Source: Meiothermus sp. (lineage in GTDB: Bacteria; Deinococcota; Deinococci; Deinococcales; Thermaceae). From it: a stretch of 64,000 bases of DNA. Position 1 is the first letter of the stretch, and the number at the start of each line of letters is the position of its first letter. Shown here piece by piece: positions 2,214 to 55,112 of this stretch. A model generated the notes under the pieces. That model ran no database searches. It was given only the letters and a program-made list of their open reading frames with translations, and had not been told where the DNA came from. Location of the stretch: positions 1,488,001 through 1,552,000 of the forward strand of contig NZ_BPIM01000001.1 in assembly GCF_026004115.1 (NCBI RefSeq). The letters are read 5' to 3'. The translations under genes and the position numbers were made by a program.

Positions 2214-3032
2214 ATGCATCCTGAAGACCTGGGCCCCATTCTGCTGGAAGTCAACAACATAGAGGTGGTGTATAAGGACATCATCCAGGTGTTGCGGGGG
2301 GTGTCGCTGAAGGTGCCGGAGGGCCAGGTGACTGCGCTGCTTGGCCCCAATGGAGCCGGAAAGACCACCACCTTGCGGGCCATCTCGGGGTTGCTGGTGC
2401 CCGAGGATGGCAAGGTCGTCTCGGGTTCCATCCTGTACCGAGGCGAAAATATCGCCAACAAACCGCCCGAGCAGATTGTGCTCAAAGGTATCGTGCAGGT
2501 GCCGGAAGGGCGGCGGGTTTTCAAACACCTCACGGTGGAAGAAAATTTGCGGGTCGGTTCGGCCACCCGGCGAGACGGGGCCAAGGTCAAAGAAGACCTC
2601 GAGCGCATCTACCACTACTTTCCCAAGCTGGCCTTGATCAAGACCCGCCTGGCAGGCTACTGCTCCGGGGGCGAGCAGCAGATGCTGGCCATTGGGCGGG
2701 CTCTGCTGGCCAACCCCCGGCTCTTGCTGCTGGACGAACCCAGCCTGGGGCTGGCGCCCATGCTGGTGCGGGAAATTTTCGACATCGTGGCCCAGATCAA
2801 CGCCGAGGAAGGCGTGACGGTACTGGTGGTGGAGCAGAACGCCCGGGTGGCCCTCTCGGTGGCCCACTATGGCTACATCATGGAGTCCGGGCGGATTGCC
2901 CTGGAAGGCACCAGGGAGTACCTCGAGTCCAACCCTGACGTCAAGGAATTTTATCTGGGGGTGGCCAAGTCGGGGGGACGCAAGAGTTTCAAGGATGTCA
3001 AGAGCTACCGCCGTCGCAAGCGGTTCATGTGA
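2214..3032 (+). CDS. livF: Branched-chain amino-acid ABC transporter ATP-binding protein LivF
   Basis: Cytoplasmic ATPase that powers the LIV importer. Walker A GPNGAGKTT is at residues 44-52, an unusual signature CSGGEQQ (family usual LSGGEQQ) near 150-156, and Walker B LLLLDEP near 168-175. The LivF-specific VPEGRRVF segment is present near 96-103. At 272 residues it is about 35 longer than a typical LivF, with a basic C-terminal tail. The ATG at 2214 is preceded by GAGGTGAT; an upstream GTG at 2202 has no comparable site. A rho-independent terminator follows the stop. Confidence 0.93.
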   Translation: MHPEDLGPILLEVNNIEVVYKDIIQVLRGVSLKVPEGQVTALLGPNGAGKTTTLRAISGLLVPEDGKVVSGSILYRGENIANKPPEQIVLKGIVQVPEGRRVFKHLTVEENLRVGSATRRDGAKVKEDLERIYHYFPKLALIKTRLAGYCSGGEQQMLAIGRALLANPRLLLLDEPSLGLAPMLVREIFDIVAQINAEEGVTVLVVEQNARVALSVAHYGYIMESGRIALEGTREYLESNPDVKEFYLGVAKSGGRKSFKDVKSYRRRKRFM

Positions 3033-3049
3033 AGTGCGCGGACTTCCCG

Positions 3050-3081
3050 GAGGAGCGAGCTCGTTTTCGCTCCTCTTTTTT
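3050..3081 (+). terminator. Rho-independent terminator after the liv operon
   Basis: An 8-bp stem GAGGAGCG/CGCTCCTC (3050-3057 with 3068-3075) is followed directly by six T residues. It lies 17 bases after the livF stop and separates the liv operon from the next gene. Confidence 0.85.
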
Positions 3082-3130
3082 GCAACACAAGACAGGATGT
3101 ACAAAACCGGCCTGAAGTACCATATAAATC

Positions 3131-3460
3131 ATGAGCGAGACGACACTGCCTACCAAAGAGCAGGTTTTGGAAGCCCTCAAGGTTGTGCGGGACCCGGAGA
3201 TTCCTGTTAACGTGGTGGATTTGGGGCTGGTTTACGACGCCGAAGTCAAAGAAGGGGGCGTGGTGGACATCACCATGACCCTGACCTCCATCGGTTGTCC
3301 CGCACAGGATATTGTCAAGGCCGACGCCGAAATTGCCGTAATGCGCCTGGAGGGTGTAAATGCGGTCAACGTAGACTTTGTATGGACCCCGCCCTGGACG
3401 CCTGCCAAGATGACTGAAGATGGTAAGCGTCAGATGCGGATGTTTGGTTTCAACGTTTGA
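3131..3460 (+). CDS. MIP18/PaaD-like (DUF59) iron-sulfur assembly protein
   Basis: Small 109-residue protein of the MIP18/DUF59 family, related to SufT and PaaD, which help mature or insert Fe-S clusters. Family marks are the N-terminal VLEALKVVRDPEIPVNVVDLG segment, the MTLTSIGCPAQD segment with its conserved Cys near residue 57, and the C-terminal VWTPPWTPAKMTEDG stretch. It stands alone between the liv terminator and a convergent gene, without other paa or suf genes, so a general Fe-S role (SufT-like) is more likely than phenylacetate degradation. Confidence 0.87.
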   Translation: MSETTLPTKEQVLEALKVVRDPEIPVNVVDLGLVYDAEVKEGGVVDITMTLTSIGCPAQDIVKADAEIAVMRLEGVNAVNVDFVWTPPWTPAKMTEDGKRQMRMFGFNV

Positions 3461-3469
3461 TGGTCGGCA

Positions 3470-3880
3470 TTACATGCGGCTGGTAAACTCGCGCTTGATG
3501 TAAAGCATGGGATCGGTGGGGTTGGCTGCCGCCCGGATGAGCTTTTCGGCTTCTGCATCCTCGAGCTCAAACAACGCTCCGTACTCCGAAGGGGCAATTA
3601 CAGCTTCCTTAAAGTCGGTCACGCCGCGCTCAAGCAGCCAGATGGTCAGCTCTTTCAGTGCTGCATCGCCCTGGGGGCCAAACCTGGGCCCGAAGGCATC
3701 CAGGCTCAAAATGCGGTGCTGGCCCTGGCGTACAAATACGGCAAAGCGGGCTTGGGCCCGCTGGTCTTGCCAGTCGGTGATATAGAAAACTGCGGCCTCG
3801 GGAAAGTCTACGCCCTTCAGGGCTTCCTTGAGGTCTGAAAGAGTTTCTTGGGGAGCGCCACGAAGACCTACGAGTTCCAT
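3470..3880 (-). CDS. Hypothetical protein, 136 aa
   Basis: I do not recognise a family. The protein is soluble, acidic and without signal peptide or membrane helices. The start is set at the second ATG (3880) because a TAGAAT -10 box ends six bases upstream, matching the leaderless spacing seen at other genes here. An ATG two codons upstream would fall inside the promoter spacer. It converges with the MIP18-like gene, with 9 bp between the stops. Confidence 0.7.
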   Translation of the reverse strand: MELVGLRGAPQETLSDLKEALKGVDFPEAAVFYITDWQDQRAQARFAVFVRQGQHRILSLDAFGPRFGPQGDAALKELTIWLLERGVTDFKEAVIAPSEYGALFELEDAEAEKLIRAAANPTDPMLYIKREFTSRM

Positions 3881-3886
3881 GCCCAT

Positions 3887-3892
3887 ATTCTA
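3887..3892 (-). promoter_or_regulatory. -10 box of a leaderless promoter (TAGAAT)
   Basis: On the minus strand TAGAAT is followed by six bases and the ATG at 3880, with no Shine-Dalgarno between, so the mRNA probably starts at or very near the start codon. Confidence 0.55.
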
Positions 3893-3946
3893 ACCAAGCG
3901 CTGTTTTTACTTCCGTTGGGCATGAACTGGCGAAGAAGTGTTTTCG

Positions 3947-4228
3947 CTAGGGCTCTACCCTTACGCCCTTCCAGAAAGCGATGCGCCCCCGGATCTGCTT
4001 TGCGGCTTCTTTGGGCTCGGGATAGTACCAGGCCGCATCCTTGTTGATCTGGCCATCGACCTCGAGGCTGTAGTAGCTCGCCACGCCCTTCCAGGGGCAG
4101 GTGGTGTGGGTAGAGGACTCGCGCAAAAATTCCCGTTTTACCGATTCGGCAGGGAAGTAATGGTTTCCTTCGACCACCACGGTATCGTTGCTCTCTGCGA
4201 TGACCCGACCGTTCCAGATGGCTTTCAT
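3947..4228 (-). CDS. DUF427 domain protein
   Basis: A 93-residue protein of the DUF427 family. The typical opening MKAIWNGRVIAES, the HYFPAESVKREFL segment, the TCPWKGVASYYSL core and the AAWYYPEPKEAAKQIRGRIAFWKGV ending are all present, so it is full length. The biochemical role of the family is unknown to me. An in-frame ORF extends 35 codons upstream but shows no family similarity, so the ATG at 4228 is preferred. Confidence 0.88.
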   Translation of the reverse strand: MKAIWNGRVIAESNDTVVVEGNHYFPAESVKREFLRESSTHTTCPWKGVASYYSLEVDGQINKDAAWYYPEPKEAAKQIRGRIAFWKGVRVEP

Positions 4229-10854: not shown

Positions 10855-10905
10855 GGGTCTTGAGTCTCGCGCAGGTCTTTGGGCCAGGAGCACGGCTCCA
10901 GACTG

Positions 10906-23880: not shown

Positions 23881-24554
23881 ATGCGTTTTTCATCTTTTGG
23901 TCGTTGGTCGCTGGTCGTTGGTCGTTGGTCGCTGGGCTAGTTTTGTTGCTTGTGGCTTGTGCTACAACCGACAATGCGAATCTCGATTATTGGCCAGAAT
24001 ATGAATCCGAAGGCGTCCTTTTCTATGCCGAGGGGGTGGAATCCAATGTCGGGTCAGAATCGGGGGATCTGGTCAATTCTCTGCAAATAAAAGCCTCAGC
24101 CACTAAATGCTCCATGAGGCTGGATTACCCCCATAAAACTACATGGAAAATCACCCTTTATAATCAACAGGATATAGTGAAAGCAAAAGCCAGTGGAAAC
24201 TGCGAAACATCACCCCCCTGGCCAGGCTTGCGCTACCATCTATACATGGTGTTGGAGCGAGGCGAGCCCACGATTGGCTTTGAGCCCAGATGGGTTGAGA
24301 TTGCCAGAGGGGGCCCCATAACACGAATTGCCCAAACCCTGGTTACTGCGCAAACAGGAATCTGGAGTGCATCTTCGACCTTCGTGGTTGCGCCATGCAC
24401 CCACAACGCCAGATACCGCGTTTGGGCATATATAGTGCGAGAAGCGCCCGGGCTTGCGGCTTCGACGCCCATCGTGTTTGGGCCCGTGGCGACTCCGGTT
24501 GAAATCAAATGCTTTGAAGATCCGAAGCCGAAACCTGATCCACCTACTAGGTAG
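23881..24554 (+). CDS. Putative phase-variable lipoprotein, locus A (OFF as sequenced)
   Basis: Paralogue of the lipoprotein at 32560. The conserved leader GGAGGTGA then ATG (23881) opens MRFSSF and runs into five heptads. With five, the ATG frame stops at TAG 23938-23940 after 19 residues. One more heptad would join the ATG to the long frame, which reads WSLVAGLVLLLVAC (lipobox LVAC) and continues to 24554. The mature part (about 200 residues, four or more Cys) shares YHLYMVLER, PRWVEI and the ARYRVW/REAPGL segments with locus C. A GTG at 23826 also opens the long frame but has no Shine-Dalgarno. Function unknown; probably a surface lipoprotein. Confidence 0.7.
23899..23933 (+). repeat. Heptanucleotide repeat GGTCGYT x5 in locus A signal peptide
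   Basis: Five tandem heptads (GGTCGTT, GGTCGCT, GGTCGTT, GGTCGTT, GGTCGCT) between the ATG leader and the lipobox. Thirty-five bases leave the ATG and the lipoprotein body out of frame; 42 bases would place them in frame. Confidence 0.92.
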
Positions 24555-24565
24555 TCGAGGTGCTT

Positions 24566-25345
24566 GTGAAAACCTCTCTGCAGGACGCTATACTCAAAAT
24601 GACGTATTTGAACGTGGGTCTTTATGGGTGGTATTACAAGATTCGTAGGAAGCTAAACCAGACTTTGTTCGGCTACTACTCGAGCTGGCGGCTTCCCAAC
24701 CAACCAGAGCCCAAGCCAACACCCGACGAGCTCGAGCACGCGCTGCTTCAACCAAGCTTTTTGGTCTCCGAGAGCGAGTTTTGGTGGCTCCCATACCTAG
24801 GCTTCAGAAAGCGGTTTAAGCTTATTCGGGGCGATGTTGAAGAACTGTATGACTCGGTGAACCACCATGGAGTAATAAAAGTGCTGCACCAAAACGGTGT
24901 ATATAAGGTGGCTGGCCGTAATCCCGTTGGGCGATGCGACTTTGAAAGATTGGATCCGATGGAATGTTTTTATTGTAACCCTGTGAATGATCTGGCTCGA
25001 GTCCCCGACTTATCGGGCATCGAAGAGCATTTTTACCTTCGACCCTTGCTGACGGTTCTCAGGCTAGAGGTTATGGATGAAACCACCCATCTAGGGCGGC
25101 CAGCAGTTTTGCTGCAGGGGGAGCCCAAATCCGAAGCCGAAATAGAGCGCTTGTACTACTTTTTGCCCACGCCAGAGGACTGGTGGAGAATAGCCGATCG
25201 GTATCACATCGCACTCGATATGCAATCGGGCTTGCTGCTTTACTACAAGGGCTTTGTAAAAGAAGGCATCCTGGTGGAGTCGGAGGTGCTCGAGCTAGAT
25301 TACTCAAACGATGACGCCAGCACTGAGCGCATATTCCAGGTGTAG
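24566..25345 (+). CDS. Conserved hypothetical protein of duplicated module, locus A
   Basis: A 259-residue protein without signal peptide or membrane helix. It is paralogous along its whole length to the product of 33216-34007: shared segments include FGYYSSWRLP, SESEFWWLP, FYCNPVN, PEDWW, VKEGILVES and the very end ERIFQV/ERVFQV. The GTG at 24566 aligns with the start of the paralogue and follows GAGGTG. It begins 11 bases after the lipoprotein stop, so both share one mRNA. I do not recognise a family; a cytoplasmic partner of the lipoprotein is a guess. Confidence 0.75.
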   Translation: MKTSLQDAILKMTYLNVGLYGWYYKIRRKLNQTLFGYYSSWRLPNQPEPKPTPDELEHALLQPSFLVSESEFWWLPYLGFRKRFKLIRGDVEELYDSVNHHGVIKVLHQNGVYKVAGRNPVGRCDFERLDPMECFYCNPVNDLARVPDLSGIEEHFYLRPLLTVLRLEVMDETTHLGRPAVLLQGEPKSEAEIERLYYFLPTPEDWWRIADRYHIALDMQSGLLLYYKGFVKEGILVESEVLELDYSNDDASTERIFQV

Positions 25346-25536
25346 GGTGCTATGGAACACGAGCCCAAGCGCTTTTCGGAGGCGCAGGGGACCTTGGAAA
25401 ATATGCTGCTGAAGCGGTAGCCCCTCATACACAGACGCTTACACATAAATCTAGACACGACCTATTTTTTCAACCTGATTTACACTGTGACTGGCTACCC
25501 CAAACTGTAGCCCGGGCTATGAAGGTGAATTCAGCT

Positions 25537-27272
25537 ATGCGTTTTTCATCTTTTGGTCGCTGGTCGCTGGGCTAGTTCTGCTGCTGGCGGCGTGCGGAAC
25601 CCAGCAGGCCAAACTGCCCCTTGAAACCTCTCCCTCGGACGGTGAACCGGTGCCCGTGGCCCTGGCCCAAGCCCTGGTCCTGGGGATGAAGGTCTCTGCT
25701 GGAGGAGTCAGCCTGCAAGAAGCAAAAACCTACAAGTTTGCCAACGAAACGGTTTATGACATGGCCGGAAAAGCCTTGCACCACCTGCTCCTAGTCGGGC
25801 CAGAGACCAGCGATTTTTGGGGCATTTTGAACAACCCCCAACCCAGCCATGCCCTCTACGCTGTTGGGGCCACCGATAAGCGCAGCTTCTTCACCTTCGT
25901 CATGCCCGCTGGTAGCTTCAGAAGCCTGACCGAAACCCGAACCAAAGCAGGTTCCTTCAAGCGCTTCCTGAGCCCCTCGCCTGGGATTCTCTACCTTGAA
26001 GACCAGCGTGGACGCATCTGGGATACCGCTACATCTACCGAGGTAAGCGCCGAACAGGCAAAACTCTGGCGACAGGCCCAGCAGGTACTCTTTGAACAGC
26101 GGCAGAAGGACGGTATCCTGGACAAGATCAAGGAAGACTGGGACAGGCTTCGCACCGAGGCCAATAAGAAGAGCCTGGCTCAAAGCGCTGGACTGCCCAC
26201 GCTGGACGAGGTAACCCTGCCCAATGGTATCCTGAATGTACCCAGACTGCTAACCGCGTTGGAGGCGCAGAAGGCTGCTCAAGGAGTAAGCCCCAGCTAC
26301 ACCAACGAGCGAACCTGGTGCATGGGCTGGTTCTGCGCTGGGATGGGCTACGCCAGCGTGGTACGGAAAAACCGTTACAACGGAGACCTGGCGAACAACA
26401 GCTTTTACAACCCCGACAACCCTCAGGACGCTAGCGACTGCCCCGCTGGTAACAAGTGTCGGATTGGGAGCGATATTCAGAATGCTGATCCGCTGGGAAA
26501 TAACCAGTGGATGAGTTTTTATCCTTATTCCAGAGTTCCACCTAATGGAGGCCAGTGGGGCGCCTGGGATTTTGGTAACAGCGGCTTAATGCCCCTAGAT
26601 GTTGTTGGTTGTGGCCCCATGTCCATAATTCGGGTTTTCGCCTGGTATGCCATCCAACGAAGTGCGTTTACAGGCGGCTCCAACGTTAATTTCGTAAATA
26701 CAGACGCTGTACCCCCTGCCACGGCAAGGGACGTAGCCTTCCTGATGTTTGAACCGGTGCACCTGGGCTCCAACTTTTACCAACCCAAAATTGGCCGTTA
26801 CACAGATGCCTGGCATTACAGGGGCTCGGGCTTGACCCGCGACACCAACATGATTCCCGGTGCAAACAACTGGATTAGAGATCACGCCAACACCGAAGGA
26901 CAAAACTGGGAGATGCGGGGTAGCCACAAGGCATTTATCAACCTAGTTTACTCGGCGGGAGCGTGGATCATTGTAGGTATGCCAATAACCTGGGTTGACT
27001 TTAGTCAACACACCTGGCGTGTACGGGACATTGCACGTGGAAAGATTGGTCGGGATAATGAGCCAGTCATCGCCCTTTACCCGACCGGTAGAGATAATGG
27101 CTTGGAAGGTCACTACGTTATGTCTCAAGCCTACATTGTGCACGAGGGATGGTTCTCGGCCACTGTGTTTTTGTGGATAACCAGAGACAAGGGCGACTTC
27201 AGGGAGGGTACGTTTGTCAACGTAACCGATATGGGCGCCTACTATAGCGGGGCCGGCATGTACCGGAGGTAG
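25537..27272 (+). CDS. Putative phase-variable secreted cysteine peptidase lipoprotein, locus B (OFF as sequenced)
   Basis: Leader GAAGGTGA, ATG (25537), MRFSSF, then only two heptads; the ATG frame stops at TAG 25573-25575. With three heptads it would join the long frame reading LVLLLAAC (lipobox LAAC) and then about 565 residues to 27272. There is no in-frame ATG, GTG or TTG between the stop at 25488 and the lipobox. The C-terminal half has VGCGPMSIIRVFAWY (Cys at 26610-26612) and LEGHYVMSQAY (His at 27111-27113), an arrangement like papain-fold C39-type peptidases. Catalysis is inferred; the promoter -35 is weaker than in loci A and C. Confidence 0.66.
25555..25568 (+). repeat. Heptanucleotide repeat GGTCGCT x2 in locus B signal peptide
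   Basis: Two perfect GGTCGCT heptads after the conserved ATG leader. Fourteen bases leave ATG and lipobox out of frame; a third heptad would restore it. Confidence 0.85.
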
Positions 27273-27277
27273 CTGCA

Positions 27278-27841
27278 ATGAAAGGACTCAGGTGGTCTAG
27301 GTGGCATCTGGTGGGCCTTACCTTGATACTTACGGCCTGCCCGTTTCCGTCCCCTGCTCCTGCAACCATGTACCTGTTCTATTTTCCCGATAACCCGGCC
27401 CTGTGCCCACAGGGTATCCAGGCCGAGGTCAGAGTTGAGTCAGGTGATCGCGAATATCTTTTTCGTAGGCTTTATTTCAACCCCGGGAACTACAGAGATC
27501 ACGATGAAGAGGAGGTTGCTGGAGACTGGGAGCCCAGGCCGGGTAGTGAAGGAACGTTTGTAGCGGTTCGATTCCAGATGACCCGATCCGCGACCAGCCC
27601 ATTGCGGAATGAAACCCTCAGCCCTCCCTTGCCTGCCTTGGAGATGTGGAAGGGCTTCTATGAACTGAAAATTCTTCCGTACGACAGACGGTTACCCCGC
27701 CTGCGGGTGCAATGCTCGGATGCGCCCGCATTAGAATTTGTAAGCCAACCAGGCAAGTTGATTTTTGTGATACTGGAAGATGCGACAGTTCCCAGCAAAC
27801 TACGGGTTTTGCAGTATGCTACATACGAATTTGGCCCGTAG
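27278..27841 (+). CDS. Hypothetical lipoprotein, 187 aa
   Basis: Begins MKGLRWSRWHLVGLTLILTAC, a lipoprotein signal peptide with lipobox LTAC (Cys about residue 21). The mature part is a small polar domain of beta-rich appearance with no family I recognise. It starts five bases after the locus B peptidase-like gene and must be co-transcribed with it, so it could be a partner, substrate-binding helper or protective protein for that enzyme. This role is a guess from position only. Confidence 0.68.
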   Translation: MKGLRWSRWHLVGLTLILTACPFPSPAPATMYLFYFPDNPALCPQGIQAEVRVESGDREYLFRRLYFNPGNYRDHDEEEVAGDWEPRPGSEGTFVAVRFQMTRSATSPLRNETLSPPLPALEMWKGFYELKILPYDRRLPRLRVQCSDAPALEFVSQPGKLIFVILEDATVPSKLRVLQYATYEFGP

Positions 27842-29988: not shown

Positions 29989-30894
29989 TCATACCAGATC
30001 CACATCCTTCCCCCGGCGGCGGTAGAGGGCTAAACCAATAAGGGTCATGACCATCAGGCCCAGGCTAACCGCCGCTCCGTAAGGCCAGTCGCGGCTGGCG
30101 TAAAACTGCTGCTGGATCAGGTTGCCCACCAGAAGATACTTGGCTCCGCCCAGGAGGTCGGGGATGACGAACATCCCCATGGCCGGGATGAAGGTCAGGA
30201 TCACACCCACCGTAAGGCCCGGCAGGGTCTGGGGCCAGACGGCCTGAAAGAAGGTACGGATGCGGCTGGCGTAGAGGTCCTGGGCTGCTTCCACCAGGCT
30301 CCAGTCGAGCCGTTCGACCGAGGAGAACAGGGGCATCACCACAAACGGTAGAAAAGCCGTCACCATACCGATATAGACCGCCAGCGGGCTGGGGTACAGG
30401 CCCGCGTCCGGGGCCAGGAGGCCCAGGCCCTGGGCCAGCTTGGCGAAAGGGAGGTCGGGGGCCAGCAACATCTGCCAGGCGTAGGTGCGGATGACCAGGT
30501 TGGTCCAGAAGGGAATAATCACCAGCGCCAGCCAGAGGTAGCGGGTGCGGGGCGGCCTGCTGGCAATAAAGAAGGCCAGGGGGTAGGCCAGCACGATGCA
30601 GACCAGGGTGGTGACAAAAGCCACCCAGAGGCTCCGCAGCAAAATCAGGATGGTGTCGGGGCTCCAGCCGAAGATGCCATAGCCCAGCAGACGGGCGTAG
30701 TTTTCCAGATTGAAGCGCCAGACCACCTCGCCGTACTGGCCTCGTTCGGCAAAGGAGAGGGCCACCAGCGAGAGGCCCGGTATCACCAGCAAGCCCAGAA
30801 TCCAGATAACCGCAGGCAGCAAGAACCACAGCCCTCGGCGGTAGAGCTGGGCGGGGGTGGTGAGTTCACCGAACCAGACGATGAGCCTATTCAT
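29989..30894 (-). CDS. potB: Spermidine/putrescine ABC transporter permease PotB
   Basis: Inner-membrane permease of 301 residues. Helices begin at about residue 22 (LWFLLPAVIWILGLLVIPG) and the contact loop VEAAQDLYASRIRTFFQAVWPQTLPG is intact. The ATG at 30894 overlaps the end of potA by eight bases (ATGAATAG). The frame stays open much further upstream, but only because the 75-bp tandem repeat inside potA has no stops in this frame; those upstream residues are not part of PotB. Confidence 0.92.
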   Translation of the reverse strand: MNRLIVWFGELTTPAQLYRRGLWFLLPAVIWILGLLVIPGLSLVALSFAERGQYGEVVWRFNLENYARLLGYGIFGWSPDTILILLRSLWVAFVTTLVCIVLAYPLAFFIASRPPRTRYLWLALVIIPFWTNLVIRTYAWQMLLAPDLPFAKLAQGLGLLAPDAGLYPSPLAVYIGMVTAFLPFVVMPLFSSVERLDWSLVEAAQDLYASRIRTFFQAVWPQTLPGLTVGVILTFIPAMGMFVIPDLLGGAKYLLVGNLIQQQFYASRDWPYGAAVSLGLMVMTLIGLALYRRRGKDVDLV

Positions 30895-32242
30895 CCAGCA
30901 CCACCAGTGCATCTGCCGGTAGCTCGGCCCAGAGTTCCTGCCCGGCCTGAAAGGTGGGGTGGGGGGCGGTACGCACGCGAATATCGCAGGCCTCGAGCGA
31001 AGACGAAGCCATTGCACTGCTCGATAAACTTTCCCGCAATTCATCGGATGCTCGCGCCCTTTGGGCCTCGAGCGAAGACGAGGCCATTGCACTGCTCGAT
31101 AAACTTTCCCGCAATTCATCGGATGCTCGCGCCCTTTGGGCCTCGAGCGAAGACGAGGCCATTGCACTGCTCGATAAACTTTCCCGCAATTCATCGGATG
31201 CTCGCGCCCTTTGGGCCTCGAGCGAAGACGAGGCCATTGCACTGCTCGATAAACTTTCCCGCAATTCATCGGATGCTCGCGCCCTTTGGGCCTCGAGCCA
31301 GACCTCCTGATAGGCCCCCCGGTAGACCGCCTCGCGCACCCGCACCCTGAGGCCGTTCTGCTGCGGCTCGACCTCGGAAAGCCGCACCCGCTCGGGCCGG
31401 ATGGCCACGTAGCCCTCGTCCCAGGGGGGGGTGCGGTTCAGGGCCAGCTTGCCAAAAGAGGCCTCGAAACCCATGGGAAGCCGAAGGCCTTTGATGAGGT
31501 TGGCCGCGCCCAGAAACTCGGCGGCGTAGCGGGTGCGGGGCCGCTCGTAGACCTCGTCCGGGGTGCCGACCTGCTCGAGTTGGCCCATGCGCATCAGGGC
31601 GATGCGATCCGAGACCGCCATGGCCTCGTCCTGGTCGTGGGTGACCAGGATAAAGGTCAGGCCCAGTTGCTGTTGGAGCCGCCTTAGCTGCACCTGCACC
31701 TCGGCCCGCAGCTTGGCGTCCAGGGCGCTCATGGGCTCGTCCAGAAGCAGTACCTGCGGCTCGTTGACCAGGGCCCGGGCCAGGGCCACCCGCTGACGCT
31801 GCCCACCCGAAAGCTGGTGGGGCAGGCGGTCTTTGAAGCGCTCGAGCTGCAAAATCTCGAGGCCGTACTTGACCCGCCGCTCCACCTCGGCCTTGTCCAT
31901 GCGGCGGCTTTTAAGCCCAAAGGCGATGTTTTCCCAGACCGAAAGGTGGGGAAAAAGGGCATAGCTCTGGAAGACGGTATTGACCGGGCGCTGGTTGGCC
32001 GGTAGGGGGGTGATATCCTTGCCCAGGAGCACCACCCGGCCCTCGGTGGGCACCTCGAGGCCGGCAATAATCCGCAGCAGGGTGGTTTTGCCGCAGCCCG
32101 AGGGGCCTAAAAGGGTAAAAAACTCGCCGGAGGGCACCTCGAGGCTGACCCCGCCCAGCGCGGTAAAGTCGCCAAATTTTTTGACCACGTTCTGTATGGA
32201 AAGGGATTCGCTTGTGGCCGGGGGCCGTGCAGCGACGTTCAT
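30887..32242 (-). CDS. potA: Spermidine/putrescine ABC transporter ATP-binding protein PotA with inserted tandem repeat
   Basis: ATPase of 451 residues. Walker A GPSGCGKTT (46-54), signature LSGGQRQRVALARAL and Walker B LLLDEPMSALD are intact. The C-terminal TOBE-like domain is split by four copies of a 25-residue unit (about residues 318-418, containing ASDELRESLSSSAMASS). Without the 100 extra residues the length is 351, the usual PotA size and close to the 343 of the paralogue at 8912. The insert is in frame, so the ATPase may still work, possibly with changed regulation. Confidence 0.9.
   Translation of the reverse strand: MNVAARPPATSESLSIQNVVKKFGDFTALGGVSLEVPSGEFFTLLGPSGCGKTTLLRIIAGLEVPTEGRVVLLGKDITPLPANQRPVNTVFQSYALFPHLSVWENIAFGLKSRRMDKAEVERRVKYGLEILQLERFKDRLPHQLSGGQRQRVALARALVNEPQVLLLDEPMSALDAKLRAEVQVQLRRLQQQLGLTFILVTHDQDEAMAVSDRIALMRMGQLEQVGTPDEVYERPRTRYAAEFLGAANLIKGLRLPMGFEASFGKLALNRTPPWDEGYVAIRPERVRLSEVEPQQNGLRVRVREAVYRGAYQEVWLEAQRARASDELRESLSSSAMASSSLEAQRARASDELRESLSSSAMASSSLEAQRARASDELRESLSSSAMASSSLEAQRARASDELRESLSSSAMASSSLEACDIRVRTAPHPTFQAGQELWAELPADALVVLDE
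30991..31290 (-). repeat. Four tandem 75-bp repeats inside potA
   Basis: Units start at 30991, 31066, 31141 and 31216, each exactly 75 bp and nearly identical (the first differs at one base in the AGACGA(A/G)GCC stretch). The flank at 31291 begins CCTCGAGC like a unit. Seventy-five is a multiple of three, so copy number can change without breaking potA. Confidence 0.95.
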
Positions 32243-32559: not shown

Positions 32560-33201
32560 ATGCGTTTCTCATCTTTTGGTTGCTGGTTGCTGGTTGCTGG
32601 TTGCTGGTTGCTGGTTGCTGGGCTGGGGTTACTGATTACGGCTTGTGGGGCGCATGACCCAGGGCATTCTCAGCATCAGCAGGGTAGTGTCATTTTTGAA
32701 GGAACCGCTGAGGAATCCAATGAGCTCAGCTCGCAACAAACTCGAGCCTCTAAAACTACCTGCACGATAAGGGTTGACTATCCACACGCTGCGTGGTGGG
32801 GTCAAGGATTCAACATGACGCGAATTGTGAAAGCAAAAGCAGAAGGTAAATGTACGACCGAACCACCCTGGCCCGGCTTGAAGTACCATTTATACATGGT
32901 TCTTGAGCGCGCCAAGCCTTCCATTGGCTTTGTACCAAGATGGGTTGAGATTGGTAGAGAAGGTCCCCTGACTCGCATTGCGCAGACTATCGGTGCTCAA
33001 CAATCAGCCGCTTGGAGTGTATCTTCGACATACATATTTGCCCCTTGCAGCGACGCTAGATACCGCGTTTGGGTTTACGTTTTGCGTGAAGCCCCGGGGC
33101 TTGTCGCTGCAACCCCCATAACTTTTGGTCCTATAGAGAATTTCGTCAAGTGTTTCCCTGATGAACCGCCACCATCCCCACCCTATTACCCTCCCCGGTA
33201 A
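32560..33201 (+). CDS. Putative phase-variable lipoprotein, locus C (ON as sequenced)
   Basis: Lipoprotein of 213 residues, paralogue of locus A. GGAGGTTA precedes the ATG at 32560. The signal peptide reads MRFSSF, then GCWLLVAG twice (six heptads, 42 bases), then GLGLLITAC with lipobox ITAC. Because 42 is a multiple of three the ATG joins the mature protein in frame. The mature domain has conserved YHLYMVLER, PRWVEI, LTRIAQT, ARYRVWVYVLREAPGL and several Cys, ending in a proline-rich tail. Function unknown; it leads a two-gene unit with 33216-34007. Confidence 0.8.
   Translation: MRFSSFGCWLLVAGCWLLVAGLGLLITACGAHDPGHSQHQQGSVIFEGTAEESNELSSQQTRASKTTCTIRVDYPHAAWWGQGFNMTRIVKAKAEGKCTTEPPWPGLKYHLYMVLERAKPSIGFVPRWVEIGREGPLTRIAQTIGAQQSAAWSVSSTYIFAPCSDARYRVWVYVLREAPGLVAATPITFGPIENFVKCFPDEPPPSPPYYPPR
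32578..32619 (+). repeat. Heptanucleotide repeat GGTTGCT x6 in locus C signal peptide
   Basis: Six perfect GGTTGCT heptads encode the hydrophobic core of the signal peptide as two GCWLLVA units. Loss or gain of one heptad would shift the frame and abolish the lipoprotein. Confidence 0.95.
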
Positions 33202-33215
33202 TTCTGCAGCTACCT

Positions 33216-34007
33216 ATGGCCATTACCCTTCAAGATGTCTTCATCAGGATGGTTTCGGGAAGTTTTCGCTTTGACTTTGGCTTGTATTTCAAAAGCCTTT
33301 GGCGGCTCAACGTACCCTTGTTTGGGTTTTACTCCAGTTGGCGTCTGCCATCGAAACACAGGCCTAAACTCGATCCAAAGTTGCTTCAACAGGAACTGTT
33401 GCAGCCCCGTTTTCAGATTGCAGAAAGTGAGTTCTGGTGGCTTCCGGGGGTGGGCTACCGAAAGAGGTACTGCTTGTATACACTTCCCAATAAACAAAGG
33501 GAGGAATGGTTCGATACGGTTAACTGGCGGGGAGTCAAAAAAGTGTGGGACAAAGGTACCTACCAAGTGGTCTCCTCTAAACCGATCCACGAGTATCGCT
33601 GTCTTAGCTCCGAAGGCGATGAATTTTATTGTAATCCTGTAAACGTAGATGCACGCATTCCCGATATGTCCGGTACAAACGAACTTTACCACTTCAGGCC
33701 CTTACTAGCCGAGGTGCAGATTGAGCTGGTAGGCGAGGACAGATATCTGGATCGCCCGGTAGTGCTGCTACGGGGGGTACCCAAACCTTTTCCAGAACGA
33801 GAAACCCCACCTTTTTTGGCGGGTTGGTCCGGGCCGGAAGATTGGTGGTTGGTTGCTGATTACTACGACCTGTCCTTGGACATGCGGGAAGGACTCTTGC
33901 TCAATTACCAAGGGCATGTAAAAGAGGGAATCCTGGTTGAATCGAAGATACTCGAGCTAGACACGTCAAACGAAGACGCCAGAAGTGAGCGCGTCTTCCA
34001 GGTGTAG
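33216..34007 (+). CDS. Conserved hypothetical protein of duplicated module, locus C
   Basis: A 263-residue soluble protein, paralogue of 24566-25345 (shared FGFYSSWRLP, ESEFWWLP, FYCNPVN, RIPDMSG, PEDWW, VKEGILVES, ERVFQV). It starts 14 bases after the lipoprotein stop. The pairing of this protein with the lipoprotein is preserved in both modules, which suggests the two act together. No known domain is recognised. It converges with gabT (12 bp between stops). Confidence 0.76.
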   Translation: MAITLQDVFIRMVSGSFRFDFGLYFKSLWRLNVPLFGFYSSWRLPSKHRPKLDPKLLQQELLQPRFQIAESEFWWLPGVGYRKRYCLYTLPNKQREEWFDTVNWRGVKKVWDKGTYQVVSSKPIHEYRCLSSEGDEFYCNPVNVDARIPDMSGTNELYHFRPLLAEVQIELVGEDRYLDRPVVLLRGVPKPFPERETPPFLAGWSGPEDWWLVADYYDLSLDMREGLLLNYQGHVKEGILVESKILELDTSNEDARSERVFQV

Positions 34008-54839: not shown

Positions 54840-55112
54840 ATACCAGATTCGGTTAGTTCGGCGCCGGATGGCGGCGAACTAACAGGGCCGAAGTTATCCG
54901 CGTTGCGGAGGGCGATACCGCCCCTTGGAAGTTATCCGCGTAGCGGAGGGCGTAAGCCCCTTTGGAAGTTATCCGCGTAGCGGAGGGCGTAAGCCCCTTT
55001 GGAAGGGAGACGCTTTCTTCGCCGACCGTTCGGGAGGGGTGTGCTCTAGGATTCAAAAAAATAGCCTCTGGGGGATCTTTGGTTTGGATGATTATCTTTT
55101 TGAATCCGGTAT
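54840..55112 (+). mobile_element. MITE-like repeat, copy 5 (long form with triplicated unit)
   Basis: A 273-bp copy with both ends intact. Between the two hairpins it holds three tandem units of 37-38 bp (see separate entry), then the GACGCTTTCTTCGCCGACC block and GGGGTGTGCTCTAGG. No protein is encoded. Confidence 0.9.
54890..55001 (+). repeat. Three tandem 37/38-bp units inside MITE copy 5
   Basis: Units at 54890-54927, 54928-54964 and 54965-55001, each starting GAAGTTATCCGCGT and ending with a CCCCTT(T)G stretch. The first unit has TTGCGG and GATACCGCC variants; the other two are identical. Other long copies hold one unit. Confidence 0.88.

Follow-up and report, generated by a model that had tools for sequence, protein, structure and literature searches.

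How could a lipoprotein be made from a long, intact reading frame that offers no usable start codon? The question is raised by locus B, which lies in the stretch of DNA analysed here (64,000 nucleotides, hereafter the window), taken from a 3.27-Mb contig in a Meiothermus-like genome of 3.35 Mb. Our answer, to which we assign a probability of about 0.83, is that locus B is a slipped-strand phase-variable (contingency) lipoprotein gene, whose start and body would come into frame, or lose it, with the number of copies of a 7-bp unit.

A lipoprotein frame without a usable start

The ATG at 25537 is well formed: it follows a ribosome site (GAAGGTGA, 25521-25528, where most sister cassettes have GGAGGTGA), opens a leader of fixed length (25537-25553, 17 nt) and leads into a heptad array (25554-25570) of two TGGTCGC units plus TGG, all on the forward strand, as are the other features of the locus. 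As the original prediction held, with two heptads this ATG reads only 12 residues (MRFSSFGRWSLG*) before a stop, and the array thus leaves the frame closed. The long frame, which extends from 25491 to 27272 behind a TGA at 25488-25490, was said to have no ATG, GTG or TTG between that stop and the lipobox; the first is indeed the GTG at 25650, beyond the codon for the lipobox Cys (25593). The lipoprotein frame is nevertheless intact over 559 codons (25593-27272). Ahead of the body lie the end of the hydrophobic segment and the lipobox LLLAAC (25571-25595, with the lipid-bearing Cys codon at 25593-25595), a lipobox kept in nearly all sisters, and within the body the Cys and His that had been placed at 26610 and 27111 are residues 340 (26610-26612) and 507 (27111-27113). 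The expectation that one more heptad would give a perfect lipoprotein signal peptide also agrees with the arithmetic, the frame being open if the number of heptads (n) is a multiple of three and B having n = 2.

Upstream of the ribosome site, the 5'UTR contains a small hairpin (GGCTAC-loop-GTAGCC, 25493-25512), which most sister leaders share with varied loop length (-6 to -16 kcal/mol); apart from it, folding the entire leader as a consensus RNA yielded no convincing shared structure. Putative promoter boxes, assigned by consensus, lie at 25457-25486 (degenerate -35 ACGACC, 18-nt spacer, -10 TACACT). Most of the 17 aligned leaders have TTGAC-N17/18-TA(C/A)A(N)T, also a consensus assignment, and in locus B ACGACC stands in the place of the -35 TTGAC of the sisters. 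At this position the cassette adjoins an insertion sequence end (TACACATAAATCTAGACACGACC, 25440-25462), which occurs elsewhere as six pairs about 1.2 kb apart in genome G017 and once in G020. The copy at locus B is a solo end; the homologue in T. arciformis is preceded by a similar end and has lost its start. Since the -35 box is disrupted by the insertion sequence end, B may be poorly transcribed. This, together with the shortness of its array, favours an explanation that we regard as improbable, namely that B is recently dead, contracted to n = 2 and locked off with its frame still undecayed.

Taken by itself, the 2.4-copy array of B (TRF score 34) is within chance, unrelated 7-mer arrays of the window at 10902 and 22721 scoring 37 and 32, so that its reality rests on membership in a cassette family. 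Other repeats of the window are a 75-bp unit (25 codons) in 4.1 copies, 99% identical (30989-31298), which lies in the overlap of two ABC-transporter genes (29989-31269 and 30887-32242) and apparently has fewer copies in M. hypogaeus, G005 and others; a 37-bp tandem repeat of 3.1 copies (54890-55005); and a dispersed element of 56-136 bp (at about 4579, 6214, 42789, 47512, 54838, 55034 and 63716), found also in G016 and G005.

The heptad cassette in Meiothermus

The cassette that combines this leader with heptads is present in 17 copies in Meiothermus, each with 1-7 heptads, and follows one order: promoter-like boxes, small hairpin, GGAGGTGA, ATG and 17-nt leader, (TGGTYGY)n, TGGGCT or similar, and lipobox. 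The pattern of heptads plus lipobox junction was found in 10 of 18 Meiothermus genomes and in none of 32 other Thermaceae, while a reversed control pattern matched twice across all 50 genomes. Behind the cassette stand bodies of two families, the B type (about 560 aa) and the A/C type (about 200 aa), and a distinct companion gene goes with each. The window holds two sister loci on the forward strand, both of the latter type: locus A (23881-24554; n = 5, at 23898-23932; closed), followed by a partner gene at 24560-25345, and locus C (32560-33201; n = 6, at 32577-32618; open, 213 aa), followed by one at 33216-34007. In the open frame of C the lipoprotein features (n-region, hydrophobic segment and lipobox) are present (MRFSSFGCWLLVAG...ITAC).

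None of the 17 copies departs from a leader of 17 nt, so an open frame requires n to be a multiple of three, and since 7 leaves a remainder of 1 on division by 3, every unit gained or lost shifts the reading frame. In the proposed mechanism, slipped-strand mispairing or unequal recombination would alter the number of units between the fixed leader and the lipobox. With n divisible by three a full lipoprotein precursor would result, three heptads adding one 7-residue turn to the hydrophobic segment; any other n would give an abortive peptide of 12-38 aa. As assembled here, two heptads in B and five in A would accordingly keep these loci off, and the six in C would put it on. The short array of B may switch rarely.

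In the genome under study n is 5, 2 and 6 for A, B and C and 1 for a paralogue near 800 kb (a second B body, internally deleted, with a 355-codon frame and closed). In the remaining 13 cassettes it is 5, 2, 2, 2, 5, 2, 4, 3, 7, 2, 5, 2 and 1, with n = 2 in all three cassettes of G009, a uniformity that would also suit a dead gene. Locus C is the sole open cassette among the 17, a share (below a third, P ~0.01, the copies being related and not independent) that counts against the proposed switch; G017f is closed despite n = 3, having lost the normal junction after the array. The class n = 2 mod 3 holds 11 of 16 copies (P ~0.004 if random), which is what could be expected if the closed frame were translated after all, through programmed frameshifting, transcript slippage or an unusual start codon. 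We consider this very unlikely: both offsets (n = 1 and 2 mod 3) occur among the closed copies and further offsets in other genera, slippage-capable T-runs are not conserved across the leaders, the other frame of G009c stops just ahead of the array, and B has no in-frame ATG, GTG or TTG ahead of the lipobox. Programmed frameshifting and transcript slippage were rejected on the mixed offsets and the unconserved T-runs. We likewise rejected, as hardly credible, an assembly or sequencing error in the heptad number. Arrays can break assemblies, and two G019 contigs do terminate within heptad arrays of at least 7 units, a finding that also favours the switch, but the B array, at 17 bp, is well within any read, and closed copies are also present in the single-contig G009 (3,097,457 bp).

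The mostly closed state could mean either that expression is costly under ordinary growth or that many copies are locked off. Across all 17 cassettes, no explanation accounts fully for the excess of n = 2 mod 3 together with the single open copy.

Orthologous sites, constraint and repeats in other genera

Comparisons of orthologous sites, made between species with one genome per species and with 1-kb upstream flanks 86-97% identical, show that n differs: 2/4/7 at the G009a/G017/G018 site, 6/5/2 at the C/G005/G009b site and 1/5 at the site shared by the 800-kb paralogue and G020 (upstream 1 kb 91% identical). At the first of these, a nearly identical leader precedes three different bodies in the three species. 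Three syntenic places in the window are involved: 14.8 kb, which has no module here; 23.8-28.0 kb, with A and B; and 32.3-34.0 kb, with C. The unlike bodies behind a near-identical leader imply that modules occupy these places in changing combinations. A close relative, M. hypogaeus, with flanks 93-97% identical, has no complete modules at 23.8-28.0 and 32.3-34.0 kb, where its junctions are 23792|27001 and 32266|34026.

The B body is under strong purifying selection, though closed in the Meiothermus copies compared. Among B and the orthologues from G013, G020 and G009, all of them closed, dN/dS for the finite pairs is 0.07-0.15 (rough values, synonymous sites being near saturation), and of 2000 runs simulated under neutrality, none stayed free of stops even at distance 0.3. 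Together, these two results indicate that the B-type product is made at least sometimes on an evolutionary time scale. The original prediction had named many stops or frameshifts in orthologues as the sign of a dead gene; the full-length copies have no stops, whereas breaks, truncations or frameshifts affect much of the wider family, with many members concerned (G007, G009b, G012a, G016, G017f, the 800-kb paralogue and the copy on plasmid pTT8). These broken relatives speak for recent death of B; its intact frame of about 560 codons and the strongly constrained closed orthologues speak against it. The two explanations are also compatible, as the switch can be lost in the B copy alone.

A profile search with a 12-member alignment extended the comparison to other Thermales. 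Between a good ATG and the lipobox, homologues in G059, G060 and G061 (one genus) have (TC)4-5 and two homologues in G070 (another genus) have (GGAA)4-6, and in all five the ATG is out of frame with the lipoprotein frame. Neither run occurs again in 60.5 kb of homologue stretches, on both strands. The G050, G094 and G108 homologues lack a repeat, and all of them have an in-frame ATG ahead of the lipobox. Three kinds of repeat at one position, which argue further against a dead gene, are hard to explain except by selection for an on/off switch, and from these sequences the repeat switch apparently arose on several separate occasions.

Relatives were absent from the viral contigs, where TTGGTCG runs are unrelated, and from the phage records; the only one on plasmids is a broken copy on T. 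thermophilus pTT8. There (9.3 kb, strain HB8, positions 2264-3954) the broken B-type body is accompanied by an intact small companion lipoprotein.

Judged from these comparisons, locus B appears to combine the properties of a contingency gene: a repeat unit that is not a multiple of three ahead of the body, differences in n between species that would set the frame, and a constrained, closed body. Real-time switching, export, enzymatic activity and a role for B are inferred.

The protein, its companion and known systems

Cys340 (in GCGP/A) and His507 (in HY/HF) show no variation in 12 divergent homologues; the same holds for C243, C248 and several Gly, Asn, Trp, Pro and Tyr residues, and the Cys340-His507 pair fits a papain-like dyad. 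The part of the original prediction that saw a C39-type peptidase is thereby supported in part, through the invariant pair, and membership in C39 itself stays putative. The body has no match in Pfam, the C39 and C10 peptidases to which the prediction had pointed included, none in NCBIfam and no sequence match in the PDB. Compared with C39_2 profiles (26 C39_2 domains), it gave a weak local match of 16-18 columns, confined to the Cys-helix. AlphaFold2 models of the body and of its C-terminal part, with a four-sequence input, had mean pLDDT of 35 and 31. Peptidase_C39_2 (PF13529), which is papain-like, shares with B the GCGP motif followed by a helix and a later GHY, with Cys and His invariant; B differs in having no Pfam match and in a Cys-His spacing of about 167 residues. 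We put the chance that the B body is a papain-like enzyme at about even.

Locus B is followed by a companion gene on the same strand (27278-27841) for a small lipoprotein of 187 aa, with a normal start and no repeat. Such a lipoprotein, of 139-187 aa, directly trails all 16 B-type bodies or remnants examined, usually at 20 nt or less. The B-type companions have a lipobox and two further conserved Cys, and most have a C-terminal EDxxxPSxLR-like motif. G019 has three companion lipoproteins in tandem. The companion of B is of the G005/G016 type, unlike those of its body orthologues, which implies that bodies and companions have been exchanged. Constant pairing, tandem copies and exchange resemble effector-immunity or enzyme-inhibitor pairs, to which this module may thus be analogous. 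The companion family of A and C (24560-25345 and 33216-34007) has no evident signal peptide and accompanies A/C-type bodies in further species as well; these two genes have no confident family match (best, DUF6980 at E 0.013 and Drt3a at E 0.025), and the sole PADLOC match, also weak, was Drt3a (E 0.025) for the gene after locus A.

With B open, a lipid-anchored protein bearing the invariant Cys/His pair would be exported alongside the adjacent small lipoprotein, and the two could act at the cell surface, as a papain-like enzyme and its partner or inhibitor, when phages or competitors are encountered. More tentatively, and with considerable doubt, the whole family may consist of lipoprotein effectors at the surface, with small lipoproteins as their cognate inhibitors or immunity proteins, in thermophiles that have no animal hosts. 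They would be mostly off, under stochastic repeat switches gained independently at least three times (7-mer, 4-mer and 2-mer), and bodies and companions would be reshuffled between three sites on the chromosome.

Most known cases of slipped-strand phase variation come from host-adapted bacteria. Phase variation at locus B and its relatives would mean that hot-spring Thermales use a switch of this type, in a module with no confident match in Pfam, NCBIfam or PADLOC. Host immunity is unlikely as the selective agent here, which makes phages or competing bacteria the testable candidates. Three repeat types at one position of one protein family would serve as a natural, replicated experiment on the kinds of protein that select for stochastic switching. 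Copies of the cassette are likely to be misannotated, because 16 of 17 have their start out of frame. In the papers searched, phase variation was not reported for Meiothermus or Thermus.

We know of no counterpart to the repeat switch in the SitA/SitI polymorphic lipoprotein toxins of Myxococcus. These toxins are alike in combining a lipoprotein of variable body with an adjacent gene (PMC5562445, PMC8546572), and companions can stand in tandem, as the three in G019 do; the likeness is one of gene arrangement. The type of mechanism is already known from neuO and Haemophilus; unreported in the literature searched are the use of it by thermophiles as a shared lipoprotein-leader cassette, the repeated invention of the switch and the protein family itself. 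In E. coli K1, the acetyltransferase gene neuO varies in phase through 3-53 units of the heptanucleotide AAGACTC and is closed in 65.6% of 64 complete genomes (PMC13001214). There too 7-bp units lie in the 5' coding region and the full product is obtained only if their number is divisible by 3, whereas the Meiothermus array has 1-7 units, lies in a lipoprotein signal peptide and belongs to a multi-copy cassette common to unrelated bodies, in a thermophile (PMC13001214). In Haemophilus influenzae, different repeat classes at simple-repeat contingency loci may control related genes, and surface-related genes are likewise switched by repeats; that species belongs to another phylum, and the heptads of hmw act in promoters, whereas those of Meiothermus lie in signal peptide code (PMC2651432).
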